From Candidatus Pelagibacterales bacterium (lineage in GTDB: Bacteria; Pseudomonadota; Alphaproteobacteria; Pelagibacterales; AG-422-B15), in contig JAONQW010000006.1 in NCBI GenBank assembly GCA_028412835.1, forward strand, positions 1-47,485: 47,485 nt of DNA, written 5' to 3'. The notes under the pieces are model-generated. The model saw only the letters and a program-made list of their open reading frames with translations. It was not told where the DNA came from and searched no databases. The position numbers and the translations under genes were made by a program. Every line of letters starts with the position of its first letter. Position 1 is the first letter of the stretch. Positions 17,150 to 24,543 of the stretch are shown piece by piece.

Positions 17150-17533
17150 ATGACTTATAAAATTGATAAAGAAAGTAGAGAAAAAGGACTGCAAATCCTT
17201 AAAAAGATGGATTTGTTAGAAGGAAATGGTACACCTATTTCTAAAGATTTTATGGCACATATTGTTGATGCCTTATATGGAAATATATGGTCTCGTGATG
17301 AGATTATTAGCCTTCCAGAAAGAAGTTTAATCACTGTAGCTGTCTTAGTGGCACTTAATCGAGAGAATGAATTAAAAATACATATTAAAGGTGCTTTAAA
17401 TCTTGGAGTATCTAAAGATAAAATTGAAGAGATGATTTTACACGTTGCACATTATAGTGGCTTCCCAACTGGTGTAAGTGCCAATCAAATTCTTAATGAT
17501 ATTTGTGCTGAGATTGACAACAAGTCAAAGTAA
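17150..17533 (+). CDS. Carboxymuconolactone decarboxylase family protein (PcaC-like)
   Basis: A 127-residue all-helical protein with the CMD core ERSLITVAVLVALNRENEL, HIKGALNLGVSKDKIEEM and LHVAHYSGFPTGVSA. It lacks the CxxC of AhpD peroxidase partners and so resembles the 4-carboxymuconolactone decarboxylase branch, which acts on ring-cleavage products, though many members are of unknown activity. There is no recognisable ribosome-binding site, and the putative operator ends only a few bases before the ATG, so a leaderless or near-leaderless message is possible. First gene of a two-gene unit with the GST (two-base gap). Confidence 0.85.
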   Translation: MTYKIDKESREKGLQILKKMDLLEGNGTPISKDFMAHIVDALYGNIWSRDEIISLPERSLITVAVLVALNRENELKIHIKGALNLGVSKDKIEEMILHVAHYSGFPTGVSANQILNDICAEIDNKSK

Positions 17534-17535
17534 AC

Positions 17536-18441
17536 ATGCAAAAACCTACACTGTCTGGCCTTCAGGATTATAAAGTTTTAGATACAGAGGAAGAATGGAT
17601 TTTATATCATAATAATTTTTCTGTTTGCTCAAGAAAAGCACGAGTATGTATAGATGAGCTTAATATAAAAGCTCAACTAAAGCATGTTCACATCATGGAA
17701 ACAAAAGATTGTGAAAACTTAACAAAGAAATTTTTAAAGATAAACCCTTTAGCAACGGTACCAGTCCTACTTCATTTTGGGATGCCAATTTATGAGTCAC
17801 ATGAACAAATTACTTATCTTGAGAATTATAGTTCTAAAAAATTAAGTCAAAGTGAGACAGTGAGTCACTGGGTGAAAAAAGGATCTTTAATAGGAGAGCC
17901 AGATAAAAATCTAGAAAAGTATGCAGGTAATTGTATTTCGATATTTACTGTTCCATTATTCGTTTCAATGTTACAAAATATTTCAATTTTTAAATACATA
18001 AAGTACTTATTTAAGCATCCTGATAGATTTAGAGCATCAAAATTTCTTGCATTTAAAATACTTGCTTATCGAGTTTTTAAAAAAGGTTCACCTATATTTA
18101 AAATTATAAAATCAGCAAGCAACAATCTCAATAATCATTTTAAAGAATTAGATGATCACCTAGAAGGAAAAAGTTGGATTGATGGTGATAATTTTAGTTT
18201 AGCAGATGTTACATGGATGGTGTTATTTCATCGTTTAAGCGAGGTCTTTTTATTAGATCATTTCTTTGAAGATAAAAACAATTTAAAAAGTTATTTTGAT
18301 AGATTGAAAAAAAGAGATAGTTATCAAACGGCATTATTGAATTATGAATCTGATGAAATTAGAATTGGAAAATTGAATCTTGAATTTGAACTTGATAATA
18401 ATAAAAATTTAAATCAATACTATGAAGCCATAAAATCATAA
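17536..18441 (+). CDS. Glutathione S-transferase-like protein
   Basis: A 301-residue protein with an N-terminal thioredoxin-like GST domain (residues about 20-95). The active-site region FSVCSRKAR (28-36) resembles the SxCSxK region of zeta-like and hydroquinone-dehalogenase-like GSTs, and NPLATVPVL with IYESHEQITYLE gives the cis-Pro loop and glutathione-binding Glu-Ser. The C-terminal domain ends with WIDGDNFSLADVTW, typical of GSTs, after a Lys-rich insertion that makes it longer than usual. In this cluster a maleylpyruvate/maleylacetoacetate isomerase-like role or a glutathione conjugation role is plausible; neither is proven. The 3' end overlaps the convergent hydroxylase gene by six bases. 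Confidence 0.82.
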   Translation: MQKPTLSGLQDYKVLDTEEEWILYHNNFSVCSRKARVCIDELNIKAQLKHVHIMETKDCENLTKKFLKINPLATVPVLLHFGMPIYESHEQITYLENYSSKKLSQSETVSHWVKKGSLIGEPDKNLEKYAGNCISIFTVPLFVSMLQNISIFKYIKYLFKHPDRFRASKFLAFKILAYRVFKKGSPIFKIIKSASNNLNNHFKELDDHLEGKSWIDGDNFSLADVTWMVLFHRLSEVFLLDHFFEDKNNLKSYFDRLKKRDSYQTALLNYESDEIRIGKLNLEFELDNNKNLNQYYEAIKS

Positions 18442-20034
18442 TAGTTTTTTATCTACTAGCATATTGATTATATTAGATATAATTTGATCTAGGCTATCTT
18501 CTTCGTTAAAATGTATGATATCAAAGACATACTTGTCAGGTCTTATCAAAACAGCGTTACACTCAAAATGACTAAAATAAGTGTCTAAGTCCTTACCATT
18601 AGACTGAAAGCAGTCAAATTTAGAATAATTACTTTTCATCGAGCTATCAGAACGATTAAGTATTCGAAAATCTATTGTATTTAATAGATTACAATTATTT
18701 TCTGAAATTGATGTGTCTTTATTAAAATTATTTAAGATTAATCCAAAGTTCTTTTGTAGGAGATCATCAGTTGTTTTATTTTTATCTTCACTCAGAGATA
18801 TTGCTGGAAAATAATATCTAAATATATGACTTCGTTCTATAGGATGATTGTGCAACCCATTACCTAGCCGAATTCCAGAATAACCAGGATAAAAACTTTG
18901 TTTTCCTTTCTTCGTTAGAGATTTGATTTTAATTCCTATATCTCTAAAAAAAGCTTTTAGGGGGCTTGGTGTCATGATGATATTGCCCATTGCTATAGAA
19001 GCCTTAATAATTTTTTCTGCATGGTATTTTCTCTCATGTTCATAGCTATCAAGTATATTTGGATTGTATTTTTTTGAAATTACTCCACTTAATTTCCATA
19101 ATAAATTTTCTACATCTCTCATTCCTGAGTTCATTCCCTGTCCCATAAATGGTGGCATTTGATGTGCAGCATCTCCCACTAAAAATACATTATTTTTTTT
19201 CCAACTATTTACTGAGGTTGAATGAAATGTATAGATCGCTTTCCTAGTAAAAGTAAATTTACGGTTTTTAAGATATTTAGCTATAAAGGGATAAAACACT
19301 TCTTCTTTTTGAATTTCGTTAAGATCATCTTCTGGCATAATCATAATTTCAAATCTAAATTTATTATTGACTGAATTAATTATAGTGAGAGATCTTTTAG
19401 GATTACAAATTTGGAAAGCATCAACATCTTTAAAACACTCTAAGTTTTGATCAGCAAAACCATCAACACACATCCATGGCTCATCGTACTTAAAGCTTTT
19501 ATACTTAACTCCCATTTTTTTTCGAATAATACTATTAGCGCCATCAGCGCCAATAAGGTATTTAGTTGTCACATGTTCAATGGTATTCGTATCCAAATTT
19601 TTAATTTTAACCCTGATATATTCATCAATTTCTTCATATGATAAAACTTCAAAGCCTAGCTTGAAGTGATTAGTGTCGTATGTCTCAGCATTATCTCTGA
19701 ATGCTTTTTCAAATTCTGGTTGATACATAAATGTTGGCCCAACCTGATAATCATATTTATCTTCTTCAGCCATACGAATTTTAAGGAAGCTTTCACCCTT
19801 ACCATTAATATGATCGATGCCACGAATTTTTCTTATCTCTATTTTATCTGCAAAATTACAAGGTACTATTATACGTCTACATTCATCATCCCAGGTAATT
19901 GCTCTAGGTAAGGTGTATATTTCTTTTTCTTTATCAATAATAAGTGAATTAATATTGTAATAACCTAACAAGTTTGCTGCGCACGCACCTACAGGGCCAT
20001 ATCCTGCAACTATTACATTATAATCAGTCTGCAT
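18436..20034 (-). CDS. FAD-dependent aromatic hydroxylase, MhpA/PheA-like
   Basis: A 532-residue class A flavoprotein monooxygenase. The FAD-binding GxGxxG is at 11-16 (VAGYGPVGACAANLLG), the DG motif at 164-165 (YLIGADGANSIIRKKMG), and the GD motif at 287-288 (VFLVGDAAHQMPPFMGQG). These enzymes use NAD(P)H and O2 to ortho- or para-hydroxylate a phenolic ring; MhpA hydroxylates 3-(3-hydroxyphenyl)propionate. The C-terminal thioredoxin-like domain is present but divergent. It follows the FAH-family gene by 11 bases in the tetR transcript. Its substrate is not readable; a phenol released by the sulfatase in the same cluster is an inference. Confidence 0.88.
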   Translation of the reverse strand: MQTDYNVIVAGYGPVGACAANLLGYYNINSLIIDKEKEIYTLPRAITWDDECRRIIVPCNFADKIEIRKIRGIDHINGKGESFLKIRMAEEDKYDYQVGPTFMYQPEFEKAFRDNAETYDTNHFKLGFEVLSYEEIDEYIRVKIKNLDTNTIEHVTTKYLIGADGANSIIRKKMGVKYKSFKYDEPWMCVDGFADQNLECFKDVDAFQICNPKRSLTIINSVNNKFRFEIMIMPEDDLNEIQKEEVFYPFIAKYLKNRKFTFTRKAIYTFHSTSVNSWKKNNVFLVGDAAHQMPPFMGQGMNSGMRDVENLLWKLSGVISKKYNPNILDSYEHERKYHAEKIIKASIAMGNIIMTPSPLKAFFRDIGIKIKSLTKKGKQSFYPGYSGIRLGNGLHNHPIERSHIFRYYFPAISLSEDKNKTTDDLLQKNFGLILNNFNKDTSISENNCNLLNTIDFRILNRSDSSMKSNYSKFDCFQSNGKDLDTYFSHFECNAVLIRPDKYVFDIIHFNEEDSLDQIISNIINMLVDKKLL

Positions 20035-20045
20035 TTCTTATAACT

Positions 20046-20939
20046 TTAGTAGGATGCGGTACTATCAGGTTCGGCAATCACTTTATTTTCAATAAAGCCA
20101 AGCTTTTCGATAGTAATTTTTACAACATCGCCTACCTTTAGCCAGTTTTGTGATGTAGCAGCAACGCCAGCAGGGGTCCCAGTTGCAATTAAATCACCTG
20201 GCTCAAGAGTAAAAGCAGTGCTTAAATATTCTACAACAGTAAAGCAATCATGTATTAAATCGTTTGTATTTGCTGATTGTCTTAACTCACCATTGACATG
20301 AGTCTCTAATTGTAACTGATGTGGATCACCAACTTCATCGCTAGTTACTAAATATGGGCCAAACGGACAATGGGTATCCCATGATTTACCCATAGTCATA
20401 GTCATTGGTGGACCTCGCATTTGCCAGTCTCTAATTGTTGCATCATTTACGATTGTGTATCCATAAATAACACTAGAGGCTTTATCGTAGGGAACATGCC
20501 TACACCGTTTACCCATTACAAAGCCTAGTTCACCTTCATAGTCAAAAAAATCTGAGGCATTTGGTTTATGCATATCATCATATGGGCCTACGACAGACGA
20601 GTTCTGTTTATTAAATATAGTAGGATATTTTTCTTGTGGCTTACCTAAAAGAGCAGCAGCTGCCTTAGCCGCCTCTTCTTTATGTGCTTTATAATTTAAT
20701 CCTACTCCAAGTATTTTATTTGGTCTTTGAATAGGAGCCATTAATTTAACATCATTAACTGAAATTTTATTTTCAGCTTGAGCAATTACTGCATTAGCTT
20801 GACTTAACCCATCATCTCCAAGCTCAATAAACTCAATCATTGTCTTGGGTAAACTAGACACTGAGAAATCAATAATTTCATTATCTATTATTGCCCCAAT
20901 TTTTTCTGAAGATTGATGTAAAAATGTAACTAGTTTCAT
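20046..20939 (-). CDS. Fumarylacetoacetate hydrolase family protein
   Basis: A 297-residue FAH-fold enzyme. The catalytic His86 is in LGVGLNYKAH; the metal ligands Glu135, Glu137 and Asp166 are in FFDYEGELGFV and GYTIVNDATIRDWQ; the C-terminal block TGTPAGVA is intact. Members hydrolyse, hydrate or decarboxylate 2,4-diketo acids from aromatic ring cleavage. The start has a good AGGAA ribosome-binding site. It lies nine bases after tetR and 11 before the hydroxylase, so the three are one transcript. The exact reaction (acylpyruvase, hydratase or isomerase) cannot be told from motifs. Confidence 0.9.
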   Translation of the reverse strand: MKLVTFLHQSSEKIGAIIDNEIIDFSVSSLPKTMIEFIELGDDGLSQANAVIAQAENKISVNDVKLMAPIQRPNKILGVGLNYKAHKEEAAKAAAALLGKPQEKYPTIFNKQNSSVVGPYDDMHKPNASDFFDYEGELGFVMGKRCRHVPYDKASSVIYGYTIVNDATIRDWQMRGPPMTMTMGKSWDTHCPFGPYLVTSDEVGDPHQLQLETHVNGELRQSANTNDLIHDCFTVVEYLSTAFTLEPGDLIATGTPAGVAATSQNWLKVGDVVKITIEKLGFIENKVIAEPDSTASY

Positions 20940-20948
20940 AATTTTTTC

Positions 20949-21533
20949 CTATTTTTTATATTTTAGTAATTGCATTATAGCACTTGTCGTCTTATCAACG
21001 ATTTTATTGTCATATCCATTTTTTAATTGCTTTCGAATTGCGTGAAGTATAAGTACAATTATTTGTTCAACAACAAATACGTCATAGCTAACTTTAAATA
21101 CTTTAATCTTAATACCTTTTTTTATATCCTGAACAAGATACTTTGAAACTTCATTTCTTATGACAGGCATATAATCATATGCTTCTAAAAATATAATACC
21201 CCAATCTGGAACTTGAACAGATCTCTCTATAAATTGTTTAGTTGAATTAATAATTTTTTGAGCTGGATCTTTTGTATTACTTTCGTCCTCTTCAATTGTT
21301 TTCGTAAGTTCAATGGCAATTAATTTTCCCACTTCGTCAAATATACTTTTTCTATCTTTATAATGATTATAGAAAGTGCCATTAGCTATACCTGCTTTTT
21401 CTGCCATCTCTTTAATTGAAGAATTTTGATATCCTTTTTTAGATAGGACATCTATGGCACCATCAATAATAGCCGCACGAGTGCGATCTTTTTTTGATAA
21501 TAAATTAGGTTTAGACTGAAAAAAATTATTCAT
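20949..21533 (-). CDS. TetR-family transcriptional regulator
   Basis: A 194-residue protein with the N-terminal TetR helix-turn-helix (residues about 24-68), including SIKEMAEKAGIANGTFYNHY and KDRKSIFDEVGK. The C-terminal ligand domain is divergent, as is usual. It is the first gene of the leftward unit and diverges from the membrane-protein/sulfatase/VOC unit. A palindrome with arms TACTGT/ACAGTA abuts its start codon, and the TGAGA-N4-TCTCA site lies 21 bases upstream. By analogy with other TetR proteins it probably represses all three units and is released by a pathway compound. The start at 21533 has no clear ribosome-binding site. Confidence 0.92.
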   Translation of the reverse strand: MNNFFQSKPNLLSKKDRTRAAIIDGAIDVLSKKGYQNSSIKEMAEKAGIANGTFYNHYKDRKSIFDEVGKLIAIELTKTIEEDESNTKDPAQKIINSTKQFIERSVQVPDWGIIFLEAYDYMPVIRNEVSKYLVQDIKKGIKIKVFKVSYDVFVVEQIIVLILHAIRKQLKNGYDNKIVDKTTSAIMQLLKYKK

Positions 21534-21546
21534 ACTGTTTACAGTA
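21533..21546. promoter_or_regulatory. Palindrome at tetR start
   Basis: A 14-base sequence with perfect six-base arms TACTGT and ACAGTA around TT; its first base is the first base of the tetR start codon (reading leftward). It contains TTTACA (21538-21543), a possible -35 for the rightward unit. It has no partner at the left cluster edge, so it could be a second operator specific to tetR autoregulation or a chance AT-rich palindrome. Confidence 0.4.
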
Positions 21547-21549
21547 TAT

Positions 21550-21573
21550 TAAAATGAGAGTAGTCTCAATTAT
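21550..21573. promoter_or_regulatory. Putative TetR operator, right copy (divergent promoter)
   Basis: Palindrome TGAGA-GTAG-TCTCA at 21555-21568 in the 68-base gap between tetR and the membrane-protein gene. The surrounding 24 bases match the left copy at 22 positions. If TTTACA (21538-21543) is a -35, the candidate -10 TAGTCT (21561-21566) lies within the palindrome at the same offset as at the left copy. On the opposite strand TTGAGA overlapping the palindrome could be the -35 for tetR. Repeat and spacing are seen; regulation is inferred. Confidence 0.72.
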
Positions 21574-21601: not shown

Positions 21602-22117
21602 ATGGATTTATATGATGCCAATTCAATTTGTAGAGTAATTTTTACAATTATTTCTATTGCATTAACTGTGGGTCCAACTATTGCAGACTTTAATAAAACG
21701 CATGCAACTCACCCCGACTGGCCGGGACACGCTAGGTTTCATGTTGTTTGGCAAGTTCTAGGTTTTTATCCAATTGCAATAATGAACATAGTTATTTTGT
21801 GGCTTTATATTCCTGATTTTTATTATCCTTATCAACTATTTTTTTGGCTTTTTTGGTATTTTACCTTTCTTGGATCTTTTATTATTACAGCTTTGGCGAT
21901 GCCAATGTACAATGGTACTCTATCTGATAAGGGTGGCAGAACTCCTTTCTTATATACTTTTGGGGAAAAATTAAGGATTGTTCCTGGAAAGCAAAAGCAC
22001 TTACCCTTTAAAATAAATAATGAAGTTAAAACATACCGAATTGATGAAAACGCACATAATTTAATACTGCCAACTTTAATTGTAATATTAAGCGTGTATT
22101 TTTTTTTAGAAATATAA
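21602..22117 (+). CDS. Four-helix membrane protein with His-rich motif, uncharacterised (DUF6640-like)
   Basis: A 171-residue protein with hydrophobic segments at about 10-27, 46-70, 76-102 and 153-170. Between the first two lies ADFNKTHATHPDWPGHARFH (28-47), followed by VWQ, a polar motif rich in His, Asp and Trp that looks like a metal- or substrate-binding site at the membrane face. It resembles small uncharacterised membrane proteins carrying 'ADxNxTHxxxPxWxxHARFHxVWQ' (possibly DUF6640; recalled, not searched). First gene of the rightward unit, with AAGG about nine bases upstream, and four bases before the sulfatase, so a role in handling the sulfatase substrate or product is possible. 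Function unknown. Confidence 0.75.
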   Translation: MDLYDANSICRVIFTIISIALTVGPTIADFNKTHATHPDWPGHARFHVVWQVLGFYPIAIMNIVILWLYIPDFYYPYQLFFWLFWYFTFLGSFIITALAMPMYNGTLSDKGGRTPFLYTFGEKLRIVPGKQKHLPFKINNEVKTYRIDENAHNLILPTLIVILSVYFFLEI

Positions 22118-22120
22118 ACT

Positions 22121-23824
22121 ATGAGCAAAAAAATTTCACGTAGATCGTTTATTAAAAAGTCAATTGCTACAGCTGCAATGACAGGTATGTCCTCTATATT
22201 ATTGACTCAACAAGCACCAGCCAATGTAACTTTAAATAAAAAACCAAATATTTTATTCATTCTTAATGACCAAGAGAGAGCATGGCCATATATACAAAAA
22301 AATGTGAATCTTCCTGCTAGACGCTATTTAGAGAGTATGTCTACTTACTTTAATCGCTCCTATACCTCTACGCCGATATGTTCACCAGCAAGAAGCTCAA
22401 TTTATACTGGTCAGCATATACAATTTACGGGAGTTTATGATAATACAGTAGCTCCATGGGTCCCTGGTTTGTATGATAACGTTAATACAATAGGTCATCT
22501 TCTGTCAGACTTGGATTATGAAACTGGCTATTTTGGAAAATGGCATTTAACAAATATTACAGAAAACCAAGTTAATGAAAACTCACTTGGGTTCGATGGT
22601 ATGAGAACTATGCTAAGCAAACATGGTTTCAAAAATTCCAATCAAGAAGGTGAAAAAGACCTAGGTCAGGGAGGTTATTTATTTGATGGTCCCACAGCAA
22701 GCATTACTTCAGAATTTATTAATAGTAAGAAAGATAAACAAAAGCCATGGGCAGCTTTTGTTAACTTTGTAAACCCACATGATATAATGTTTTATAGAGT
22801 TGACCCTTCAATAAGTGGAACAGGCTTTCTTGGTGATCATCAAAAATTTGCTCCAGATGATGAAATATATGATTTTCAACATGAAATAGAATTTCCAAAA
22901 AACTTTGCTCAATTAAGTGAAGAAGATTGGTCCCCAATAGATATGATGAATATTGTTTATGGAGAAATACCATTCGAACGAATTGATTTATGGAAAAAGT
23001 TTATAAACTACTATTATAATTGCCTTCGAGATGTTGATCGGCATATAAATACTTTAGTAGAAAATTTAAAATCATCTAATCAACTAGATAATACAATTAT
23101 ATTCATGGTTTCAGATCATGGTGAAATGCTTGGGCAACATGGGATTAGAGGTAAAATAGCTGCATGGGAAGAGTCGGTGCGTGTCCCAACACTTATCTAT
23201 CATCCAGACCTTAAAAAACAGCAAACTTGTGAATCAATAGTTTCAAATATAGATTTTGTACCCACAATGCTTGAATTTGCTGGTTTAGATCAAACTCAAA
23301 TTCAAGCAAAATACCCTGAGTTAAAAGGTAAAAGTTTTGCACCAATAACTGAAAATGTAGATTATAAAAATTATAGAGATGATGAGGGACATTTAGTTCA
23401 AGGATCACCAATCATAGGTGCAGCTTTTGAAGTAAATGAAAAAGTTAGACATATTGGTCTTGCAGATAATTATTTTGATAAGTTCAAAGCTTTTGCATCA
23501 AAAGGCAATTTTTTACCAGATTTTTCACCACCATTTTGTTATAAAGCCATTGTTACTAAGAAGTATAAATTTGTAAGAGGTTTTTCTCCACGTGAAAATA
23601 ATACACCCACAAATTTGCAAGAATTATTTTCTAATAATTCAAATATTAGTCTTTATGATCTTGAAAAAGATCCTTATGAGTTAAATAATTTAGCAAAAGA
23701 TCAATCTCAGAATGAACTATTGCTTAAAATGAACACAAAATTAAATGCTTTGATGGAAAAAGAAGTTGGCCTAGAAAATCATGTGGTTCACTTGCCAGGA
23801 CCTGATTGGTTTTGGACAACTTAA
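22121..23824 (+). CDS. Tat-exported sulfatase (S1 family)
   Basis: A 567-residue alkaline-phosphatase-superfamily sulfatase. The N-terminus has a twin-arginine signal (SRRSFIKK, Arg7-Arg8) followed by a hydrophobic stretch and a probable cleavage near residue 34, so it is folded before export to the periplasm. The formylglycine motif CSPAR is intact at Cys87-Arg91, followed by SSIYTGQH. Metal-site segments NDQERAW (49-55), FGKWHLT and MVSDHGEMLGQHG are readable. It would need a formylglycine-generating or anaerobic maturase, which is not in the window. The family removes sulfate from aryl, choline or carbohydrate sulfates; the neighbouring aromatic genes favour an aryl sulfate, by inference only. 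Confidence 0.92.
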   Translation: MSKKISRRSFIKKSIATAAMTGMSSILLTQQAPANVTLNKKPNILFILNDQERAWPYIQKNVNLPARRYLESMSTYFNRSYTSTPICSPARSSIYTGQHIQFTGVYDNTVAPWVPGLYDNVNTIGHLLSDLDYETGYFGKWHLTNITENQVNENSLGFDGMRTMLSKHGFKNSNQEGEKDLGQGGYLFDGPTASITSEFINSKKDKQKPWAAFVNFVNPHDIMFYRVDPSISGTGFLGDHQKFAPDDEIYDFQHEIEFPKNFAQLSEEDWSPIDMMNIVYGEIPFERIDLWKKFINYYYNCLRDVDRHINTLVENLKSSNQLDNTIIFMVSDHGEMLGQHGIRGKIAAWEESVRVPTLIYHPDLKKQQTCESIVSNIDFVPTMLEFAGLDQTQIQAKYPELKGKSFAPITENVDYKNYRDDEGHLVQGSPIIGAAFEVNEKVRHIGLADNYFDKFKAFASKGNFLPDFSPPFCYKAIVTKKYKFVRGFSPRENNTPTNLQELFSNNSNISLYDLEKDPYELNNLAKDQSQNELLLKMNTKLNALMEKEVGLENHVVHLPGPDWFWTT

Positions 23825-23844: not shown

Positions 23845-24543
23845 ATGGAAAATAAGAAAGAAGTTTTATTAGATTTGGAGCTTTATAAAAATTTTAGATC
23901 TGAAGACGCCCCAGATTTATTTCATCATGTTTCTTTTAAAACAATGAATTACGATAAAATGGTTAGTTTTTATCAAAACTTATTCAGTTGTAAGCCCATG
24001 TATGCAAGTGAGGACATTACCTTTATGTCATTTGATGAAGAGCATCATAGAATAGCAATTGCAAATACTAGCCCAGTTTTTGATGGGTTAGGTTTTGTTC
24101 CCAAAACAGTTATAAAATTTAAAAATTGGATTAATCGAGTTACTCCATCAATTGTTGGCTTAGACCATATATCTTACAAATTAAATCCAATTGATAAATG
24201 GTTTGATTTCTACTTCAGAGCTAAGGATAGAGGCTTAGAGCCATATTGGACTATAAATCATGGTTGGATCAGTGGTATTTATTACAAAGATCCAGATGGA
24301 AATTTAGTAGAGATTTTTTATGAACATTGGAGAAACCAAGAAGAGTTTAAAACAGAAGTTTCTACTAGGGGCTTTCCAGAGGAACCAGTTGGTACCAATA
24401 TGGATATAGAAACTCTTTATGCAATGTATAAAGATGGTACTCCATATGAGGACATCGTCAGAAAAGGCAATACAGTTCCTAAGGGTAAAAAACCAGTTTC
24501 AGGAATGGAAGCTGCTATGAATATGCGAAAGAAATTTAAATAA
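23845..24543 (+). CDS. VOC-family extradiol dioxygenase-like protein
   Basis: A 232-residue vicinal-oxygen-chelate protein with two beta-alpha-beta modules. The candidate iron triad is His28 (LFHHVSFKT), His108 (GLDHISYKL) and Glu156 (DPDGNLVEIFYEHW), with His139 in TINHG as a possible second-sphere acid/base. This pattern is that of type I extradiol ring-cleavage dioxygenases (BphC-like), which open catechols. The C-terminal tail past residue 165 is an extra polar extension. Good AAGGAAG ribosome-binding site; follows the sulfatase by 20 bases. A glyoxalase-type or other VOC lyase is the alternative. Confidence 0.8.
   Translation: MENKKEVLLDLELYKNFRSEDAPDLFHHVSFKTMNYDKMVSFYQNLFSCKPMYASEDITFMSFDEEHHRIAIANTSPVFDGLGFVPKTVIKFKNWINRVTPSIVGLDHISYKLNPIDKWFDFYFRAKDRGLEPYWTINHGWISGIYYKDPDGNLVEIFYEHWRNQEEFKTEVSTRGFPEEPVGTNMDIETLYAMYKDGTPYEDIVRKGNTVPKGKKPVSGMEAAMNMRKKFK

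Follow-up and report, generated by a model that had tools for sequence, protein, structure and literature searches.

A divergent DUF6640-related membrane protein of SAR11 bacteria, its aromatic-catabolism gene context and its possible role as a metalloenzyme

In a 47,485-nt stretch of a Candidatus Pelagibacterales genome (the window; assembly of 1.02 Mb, 72% complete), an open reading frame on the forward strand (21,602–22,117, ATG start) encodes a membrane protein of 171 amino acids, which an initial annotation placed at the head of a sulfatase operon. Three roles had been offered for it there, namely uptake of the desulfated product, anchoring of the sulfatase, and activity as a membrane metalloenzyme. 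The question raised by this locus is which of these, if any, fits the conservation of the protein and the company that its gene keeps in other genomes.

The membrane protein and its relation to DUF6640

The description of the product as a small four-helix membrane protein agrees with the 171-residue reading frame and with an AlphaFold2 model built on a 39-row alignment, in which helices are predicted at residues 8–30, 42–53 with 55–67, 75–103 and 149–170 (mean pLDDT 88.6, pTM 0.79). The same four helices are predicted for a Parvibaculum-type relative (pLDDT 91.1, pTM 0.84), the alignments behind the two models having rows in common. Residues 28–47 (ADFNKTHATHPDWPGHARFH, translated from the reading frame at 21,602–22,117; codons at 21,683–21,742, forward strand) begin where helix 1 ends and extend into the beginning of helix 2, and all the residues of the polar motif described earlier are present in the translation, that is, four His (H34, H37, H43 and H47), two Asp (D29 and D39), one Asn (N31) and one Trp (W40).

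A search against Pfam families, which had been proposed as a check, gave a match to a family of unknown function, PF20345 (DUF6640, presumably InterPro IPR046580), at 25.6 bits (E 1.4e-5), which is below the curated cut-off of 27 and covers positions 6–38 of the 133-position profile, i.e., the motif region only. Among nine relatives scanned singly, L079 (32.7 bits), L062 (33.1 bits) and L038 (41.3 bits) score above this cut-off, and these three, at 31–37% identity to the window protein, can be aligned with it across motif and helices, establishing homology to sequences that pass the cut-off. Matches to DUF6640 at E up to 0.01 were obtained for 34 of the 35 rows of a further alignment (A3). On sequence comparison, the window protein is hence classed as a divergent relative of DUF6640 and not as a formal member: the N-terminal motif region is common to both, whereas the SAR11 branch is set apart by an insertion in loop 3 and by His, not Asn, at position 37. 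No relative with a solved structure was found, as the A3 sequence profile matched no PDB chain. A PHROGs search with the membrane protein gave no match, no paper on DUF6640, PF20345 or IPR046580 was found in the literature searches made, and none of the listed titles on SAR11 or Pelagibacter with aromatics, sulfatases, dioxygenases or formylglycine pointed to the gene cluster of the window.

The genome-contig scan yielded at least 79 related loci. The gene is present in 38 of 53 SAR11 family genomes, that of the window included, and is rare elsewhere: it occurs in 5 genomes of a phylum sample of 398 and in 12 of a class sample of 385 (both including the window's own genome). A different proteobacterial class gave 4 among 369 genomes, and the centre genome, a known match, is one of the four. 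The nearest relatives of the window among the matches listed are from Pelagibacteraceae, with 85% identity at best. A tree of 44 rows, with weak support for 13 of its 41 inner branches and with long branches for two rows, separates a clade of 35 rows, 28 of them in aromatic contexts, from a clade of nine rows with mainly Glu at position 29, two of which are in an aromatic context, both by LigB only.

Conserved residues and predicted topology

In the 39-row alignment (A1), the invariant columns include D29, N31, H34, W40, H43, R45, H47, W50, Q51, W67, G105, D109 and G112, a conservation that within the motif is partly by construction, because DFNKTHAT was one of the seed patterns of the genome-contig scan. 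A set of 25 relatives was therefore considered that had been found by tblastn or profile search and not by exact seed patterns, some of them from the same species as seeded loci. H34, H43, H47, W50 and W67 are present in all 25, and position 29 is acidic throughout (17 Asp, 8 Glu), followed by W40 (24/25), R45 and Q51 (23/25 each) and N31 (22/25). Since these relatives were recovered without exact seeds, the conservation of the motif goes beyond chance, and the family signature can be written as [DE]-x-N-x-[TS]-H-x2-N-x2-W-x2-H-A-R-x-H-x-V-W-Q. The motif had been called conserved-looking, and for H34, H43 and H47 this is borne out as a feature of the family, but H37 is a peculiarity of the SAR11 branch, as position 37 is Asn in 24 of the 25 relatives. 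A second conserved stretch, delimited from alignment A1, the 25 relatives and a charge count, spans residues 104–150 (21,911–22,051, forward strand) and contains G105 (22/25), G112 (21/25), N150 (16/25), D109 and D148 (15/25 each), as well as an insertion of about 21 columns that is confined to the SAR11 branch of A1.

By the topology of the predicted models alone, the polar residues that are conserved share one face of the membrane. Lys and Arg residues are most frequent in loop 3 (on average 4.56 over the 39 rows), less so in the motif loop (1.13) and nearly absent from loop 2 (0.10) and the N-terminus (0.03), with loop 3 also being rich in Asp and Glu (mean 3.21) and much of its charge bias in SAR11 coming with the extra, positively charged insertion. 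Under the positive-inside rule, this bias suggests a cytoplasmic location for both the motif and loop 3. H34, H43, H47 and the acid at position 29, all kept in 25 of 25 relatives, form a residue set of the metal-ligand type that a membrane metalloenzyme would call for, and the presence of three His plus an acid at the same face of the membrane is suggestive of a metal enzyme.

Gene neighborhoods within and outside SAR11

On the forward strand of the window, the membrane-protein gene is followed by a sulfatase gene (22,121–23,824; Pfam Sulfatase, 3.1e-46), which starts 3 nt past the stop of the former and encodes a Tat-like leader and a CSPAR maturation motif at residues 87–91, and by a gene for a VOC-superfamily protein (23,845–24,543; Pfam Glyoxalase, 1.2e-6), a probable ring-cleaving dioxygenase of the extradiol type. 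Divergent to this operon, the reverse strand encodes a TetR-family regulator (20,949–21,533; Pfam TetR_N, 1e-10), an FAA-hydrolase-fold enzyme (20,046–20,939; Pfam FAA_hydrolase, 2.8e-66) with HpcE, acylpyruvase and maleylpyruvate hydrolase among its relatives in the PDB, and an FAD-dependent aromatic hydroxylase of the PRK06183 subfamily (18,436–20,034; NCBIfam NF004829, 394 bits against a cut-off of 390) with phenol hydroxylase relatives in the PDB. A glutathione S-transferase (GST)-like protein (17,536–18,441; Pfam GST_N_2, 8e-9) and a carboxymuconolactone-decarboxylase (CMD)-like protein (17,150–17,533; Pfam CMD, 4.2e-16) are encoded beyond these on the forward strand.

The gene for the VOC protein was found in all of 35 SAR11 loci and that for the sulfatase in 29, while the FAA hydrolase, FAD hydroxylase, CMD and GST genes were each found in 31. 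Three of the four misses (L021, L025 and L031) are contig ends. The fourth, L005, has the VOC and DUF6640 genes and none of the others; it is the only SAR11 locus with full flanks in which these two occur and neither an FAA hydrolase nor a hydroxylase gene was found upstream, and its gene content possibly reflects a rearrangement or a mis-joined assembly. In L002 and L033, no sulfatase gene was found and the VOC, FAA-hydrolase and hydroxylase neighbors are retained. H28, H108 and E156 of the VOC protein, which we take to be its metal ligands from what is known of the superfamily, are present in all SAR11 copies in which these positions are covered (33, 34 and 34 of 35, respectively).

The operon order reported at the outset, with the sulfatase and then the VOC gene behind the membrane protein, is that of the window, but it is not general, since the gene lies ahead of both in only 3 of 35 SAR11 loci: it precedes the sulfatase in the window and in L001, L003 and L034, and stands downstream of the VOC gene in the other 32. 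In L003 and L034, an SDR gene lies directly upstream of the DUF6640 gene, an order common to the Parvibaculum type; the SDR gene of L003 (L003:7186–7995) has one in-frame stop and its L034 counterpart is open. The operator that the operon had been supposed to share is possible, as two inverted repeats are candidates, namely a perfect 7-2-7 palindrome that overlaps the start codon of the TetR gene (21,532–21,547), partly kept in L001, and TGAGA-N4-TCTCA (21,555–21,568), identical in L001. The case is nevertheless weak, in that only the latter is intact in L001, it was not seen in the other stretches compared, and a TetR gene is found in 3 of 35 SAR11 loci.

Outside SAR11, 72 loci were dereplicated at 75% identity into 31 groups, leaving out G197, the second G372 copy, one G666 fragment, G998, G960 and G830; L078 and L124 were fetched loci without a callable DUF6640 gene. 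Matches were present in 33 plasmid records, 20 of them near-identical Agrobacterium records, and nine of the 33, making up eight of the 31 groups, were examined. Genes in the surveyed loci were called by a custom script; of 50 annotated genes that had also served to train it, it recovered all 50. Aromatic-catabolism genes lie within four genes in 20 of the 31 dereplicated loci, and an FAA-hydrolase-fold gene does so in 17 and is adjacent in 11. Because the reference proteins for the context labels were partly drawn from L038, L065, L069, L077, L079, L117, L118, L120, L125 and L146, these ten loci count by construction, and L146 was counted as aromatic on a LigB match alone. The enrichment of aromatic labels in near over far genes (43/235 versus 9/177, Fisher p 4e-5) counts by construction as well, as references came from surveyed loci. 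A count of Pfam families among the 121 nearest neighbors of the 31 loci (two per side where present) is free of the bias of reference choice, and is led among enzyme families by FAA_hydrolase, aromatic-ring hydroxylase domains and SDR (FAA_hydrolase 9, FAD_binding_3 8, Rng_hyd_C 8, SDR 8, TetR_N 8, HpcH_HpaI 4, LigB 2 and Glyoxalase 2; 25 of 108 families listed).

In the Parvibaculum type, a TetR gene is followed by hydroxylase, SDR, DUF6640 and FAA hydrolase genes, and the Halieaceae locus L038 reads FAA hydrolase, DUF6640, hydroxylase, an unassigned gene, SDR, sulfatase, FAA hydrolase and VOC. On plasmids, the gene is next to hpaH and an HpcH aldolase gene (Agrobacterium and Shinella), to FAA hydrolase and aldolase genes (the Thioclava p2 plasmid), to an FAA hydrolase gene (both Rhodococcus plasmids), or to dmpG and an acetaldehyde dehydrogenase gene (an Escherichia coli plasmid), and a tautomerase gene is also among those beside or near DUF6640 on annotated plasmids. 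DUF6640 genes sit inside or beside gene sets of meta-cleavage lower pathways of the HpaH/HpcH and DmpE/F/G/H types, and their products are labeled as hypothetical proteins in the annotated records examined. We know of no named step in such pathways that is assigned to a membrane protein like this one.

In 11 of the 31 loci (L067, L070, L076, L119, L137, L138, L140–L143 and L145), no aromatic-catabolism gene was found within four genes; they include a Rhizobiales group, locus L119 on a Thioclava plasmid and the greater part of the divergent clade with mainly Glu at position 29. In the Rhizobiales subgroup L058–L076, thymidylate synthase, HflK or TctA transporter genes, and not aromatic genes, lie nearby in the loci scanned. 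The context of homologues, named initially as a way to check the sulfatase or aromatic link, is thus mostly aromatic, in 20 of 31 groups outside SAR11 and in the SAR11 loci, and is not so in the other 11.

Possible roles of the membrane protein

A sulfatase profile matched in 5 of the 72 loci outside SAR11, from 5 of the 31 groups, at +4 (L038), +3 (L134), −5 (L065), −6 (L061) and −3 (L040, a fragment at a contig end) relative to the DUF6640 gene, and found none in the remaining 67. The association is recurrent but not constant, sulfated substrates are a recurring theme, and a sulfatase-centered reading is too narrow. Two alphaproteobacterial genomes (G554 and G649) hold a separate cluster (L164 and L165) with sulfatase, VOC2-like, FAA hydrolase and window-like hydroxylase genes, in which no DUF6640 gene was labeled; both genomes carry DUF6640 in another cluster. 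Among the SAR11 sulfatases, Cys and Arg of CSPAR are kept in 29 of 29 copies and the full motif in 28, with Ser for Ala in one, and the FGE-sulfatase domain PF03781 had no match in any of the 53 SAR11 family genomes searched, 12 of which are at least 90% complete. That the membrane protein anchors or assists the sulfatase, as had been suggested, could draw on the adjacency of the two genes in the window, on the 29 of 35 SAR11 loci with a sulfatase and on the five groups outside SAR11. However, the gene and its neighbors stay where no sulfatase was found (L002, L033 and the 67 loci outside SAR11), and the conserved face is predicted to be cytoplasmic, at odds with the Tat-like leader of the sulfatase, which disfavors this suggestion to the point where we give it hardly any credence.

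Membership of the protein in an aromatic ring-cleavage pathway, on the other hand, is very probable, and the likeliest of the three roles first offered is that of a membrane metalloenzyme, with uptake of the desulfated product as a less likely but conceivable role; as to whether the protein is an enzyme at all rather than a carrier or scaffold, we consider the chances to be about even. The main rival to a metal enzyme is a small oligomeric carrier or channel that transports the aromatic substrate or a ring-fission acid, in which the His/Asp/Arg motif would bind a carboxylate or move protons. Four predicted membrane helices, the lack of a recognized enzyme fold, the placement of the conserved residues at one end of the bundle and the need of the pathway for uptake would all suit such a protein, but MFS or ABC transporters are already present in the Rhodococcus, Agrobacterium, Shinella and one Thioclava cluster, and carriers do not usually have a fixed set of three His plus an acid, so that this role is rather unlikely, albeit worth keeping in mind. 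A non-catalytic scaffold that docks FAA-fold or other soluble pathway enzymes to the membrane would account for the adjacent FAA-fold gene in 11 of 31 loci; it is improbable, given that the FAA-fold enzymes found as partners come from several subfamilies (hydrolase type, HpaH hydratase type and DmpE/H type) and that the conserved part of the membrane protein consists of His, Asp and Trp residues. The protein could also be the ring-cleaving oxygenase itself, because Parvibaculum-type operons comprise hydroxylase, SDR, membrane protein and FAA hydrolase and no dioxygenase, no VOC2- or LigB-like gene was labeled in these loci, and no oxygenase appears in the 32 kb listed of the Agrobacterium module, whose gene table is incomplete. 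Yet an intact VOC triad adjoins the membrane protein in SAR11, and the missing-dioxygenase reading is weakened because a VOC2-like protein is present in 10 of 11 alphaproteobacterial genomes searched that carry the gene, in nine of them away from the cluster, with an FAA-hydrolase gene near all eight VOC2-like places examined and a hydroxylase or sulfatase gene near some; we regard an oxygenase as highly improbable.

The nearest working analogy is styrene oxide isomerase (StyC), itself a small isomerase of the membrane that is encoded in an aromatic operon. StyC (PDB 8pnu and 8pnv) is described as a trimer with haem b held by H58, and by H57 in Rhodococcus (PMC11374702; PMC12502698). Like the DUF6640 proteins, it is a small four-helix membrane protein of an aromatic cluster, with the essential H58 near the start of helix 2 (PMC11374702; PMC12502698), but its two long loops are described as periplasmic (PMC11374702), in contrast to the conserved DUF6640 face, which is predicted to be cytoplasmic. 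A closer kinship, with DUF6640 as a haem enzyme related to or resembling this four-helix isomerase of styrene catabolism and its haem-ligand His, is made conceivable by 8pnu at Foldseek rank 3 for the Parvibaculum-type model, by the shared helix count and conserved His near the start of helix 2, by a forced alignment that sets ARFH on ARAH, and by the likeness of DTNLFG to ETNIFG where helix 4 begins. The motif match was noticed only after the fact, however, the Foldseek E-value is 1.2 (TM-score 0.19), 8pnu is absent from the best 50 VIA-align entries, a scanned StyC protein has no DUF6640 match, and the window protein has three conserved His and no significant profile or fold similarity to StyC, making this kinship quite improbable. 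Homology to StyC was also tried with narrow and widened profiles and found unsupported (hhalign probability 0.1–0.4%, from shallow profiles). As a separate observation, distant styrene-oxide-isomerase-like proteins are encoded at L177, L189, L190 and L178 (genomes G032 and G301), three of them in one genome.

The metal-enzyme reading can be placed within the pathway by the chemistry of its partners. FAA-fold hydrolases and hydratases, tautomerase and pyruvate aldolases share enol/keto-acid chemistry, and because this is what the partners have in common, the membrane protein may act at the stage of the ring-fission product, upstream of or alongside the FAA-fold enzyme. It is a plausible proposal, which we hold at slightly less than an even chance, that it is a metal-binding membrane component of aromatic ring cleavage that acts on the ring-fission product next to the FAA-fold enzyme. 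The observations behind it are sequence conservation, the confident predicted four-helix model and genomic linkage, while the cytoplasmic side, metal binding and catalysis are inferred. Metal would be bound via H34, H43, H47 and D29 in a predicted pocket at the cytoplasmic face, which would also contain N31, R45, W50 and Q51, joined in some family members by D109, D148 and N150, and the protein might act as an isomerase or similar enzyme on the enol/keto acid that is then fed to the FAA-fold enzyme. In SAR11, where the steps, their order and the substrate are read from the families of the neighboring genes, an exported sulfatase would strip the sulfate group outside the inner membrane, the phenol would then enter the cell and be converted by the FAD hydroxylase to a dihydroxy-aromatic, the VOC enzyme would open the ring, and the FAA-hydrolase-fold, GST and CMD enzymes would complete the pathway.

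Several findings count against this proposal, among them the 11 of 31 loci without aromatic-catabolism genes within four genes and the large share of the loop 3 charge bias in SAR11 that is due to its insertion. D109, D148 and N150 are not universal among the 25 relatives, and the ring-cleavage partners vary by locus (VOC, LigB, intradiol, or none seen), therefore no single missing step assigns the membrane protein. No metal site or enzyme fold was recognized, as Foldseek and VIA-align gave no convincing match: comparison with PDB folds yielded none at E up to 0.001 for either AlphaFold2 model, and the best VIA-align rows, 4uxz for the window model (Z 6.2, rmsd 3.5, 70 aligned) and 6n63, an iron-binding protein, for the Parvibaculum-type model (Z 9.6, rmsd 3.3, 109 aligned), are both below the level that the tool deems meaningful for helical bundles.

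More broadly, and only tentatively, DUF6640 may represent an unrecognized class of membrane-embedded, cytoplasm-facing metalloenzymes that convert ring-fission products for FAA-fold enzymes from SAR11 to Rhodococcus and that would enable the use of sulfated phenols by SAR11. A family without a known function gains a specific and testable home in aromatic ring cleavage beside FAA-fold enzymes, across phyla, and SAR11 relatives appear to have a compact pathway for sulfated aromatics, in which one membrane step is unassigned.
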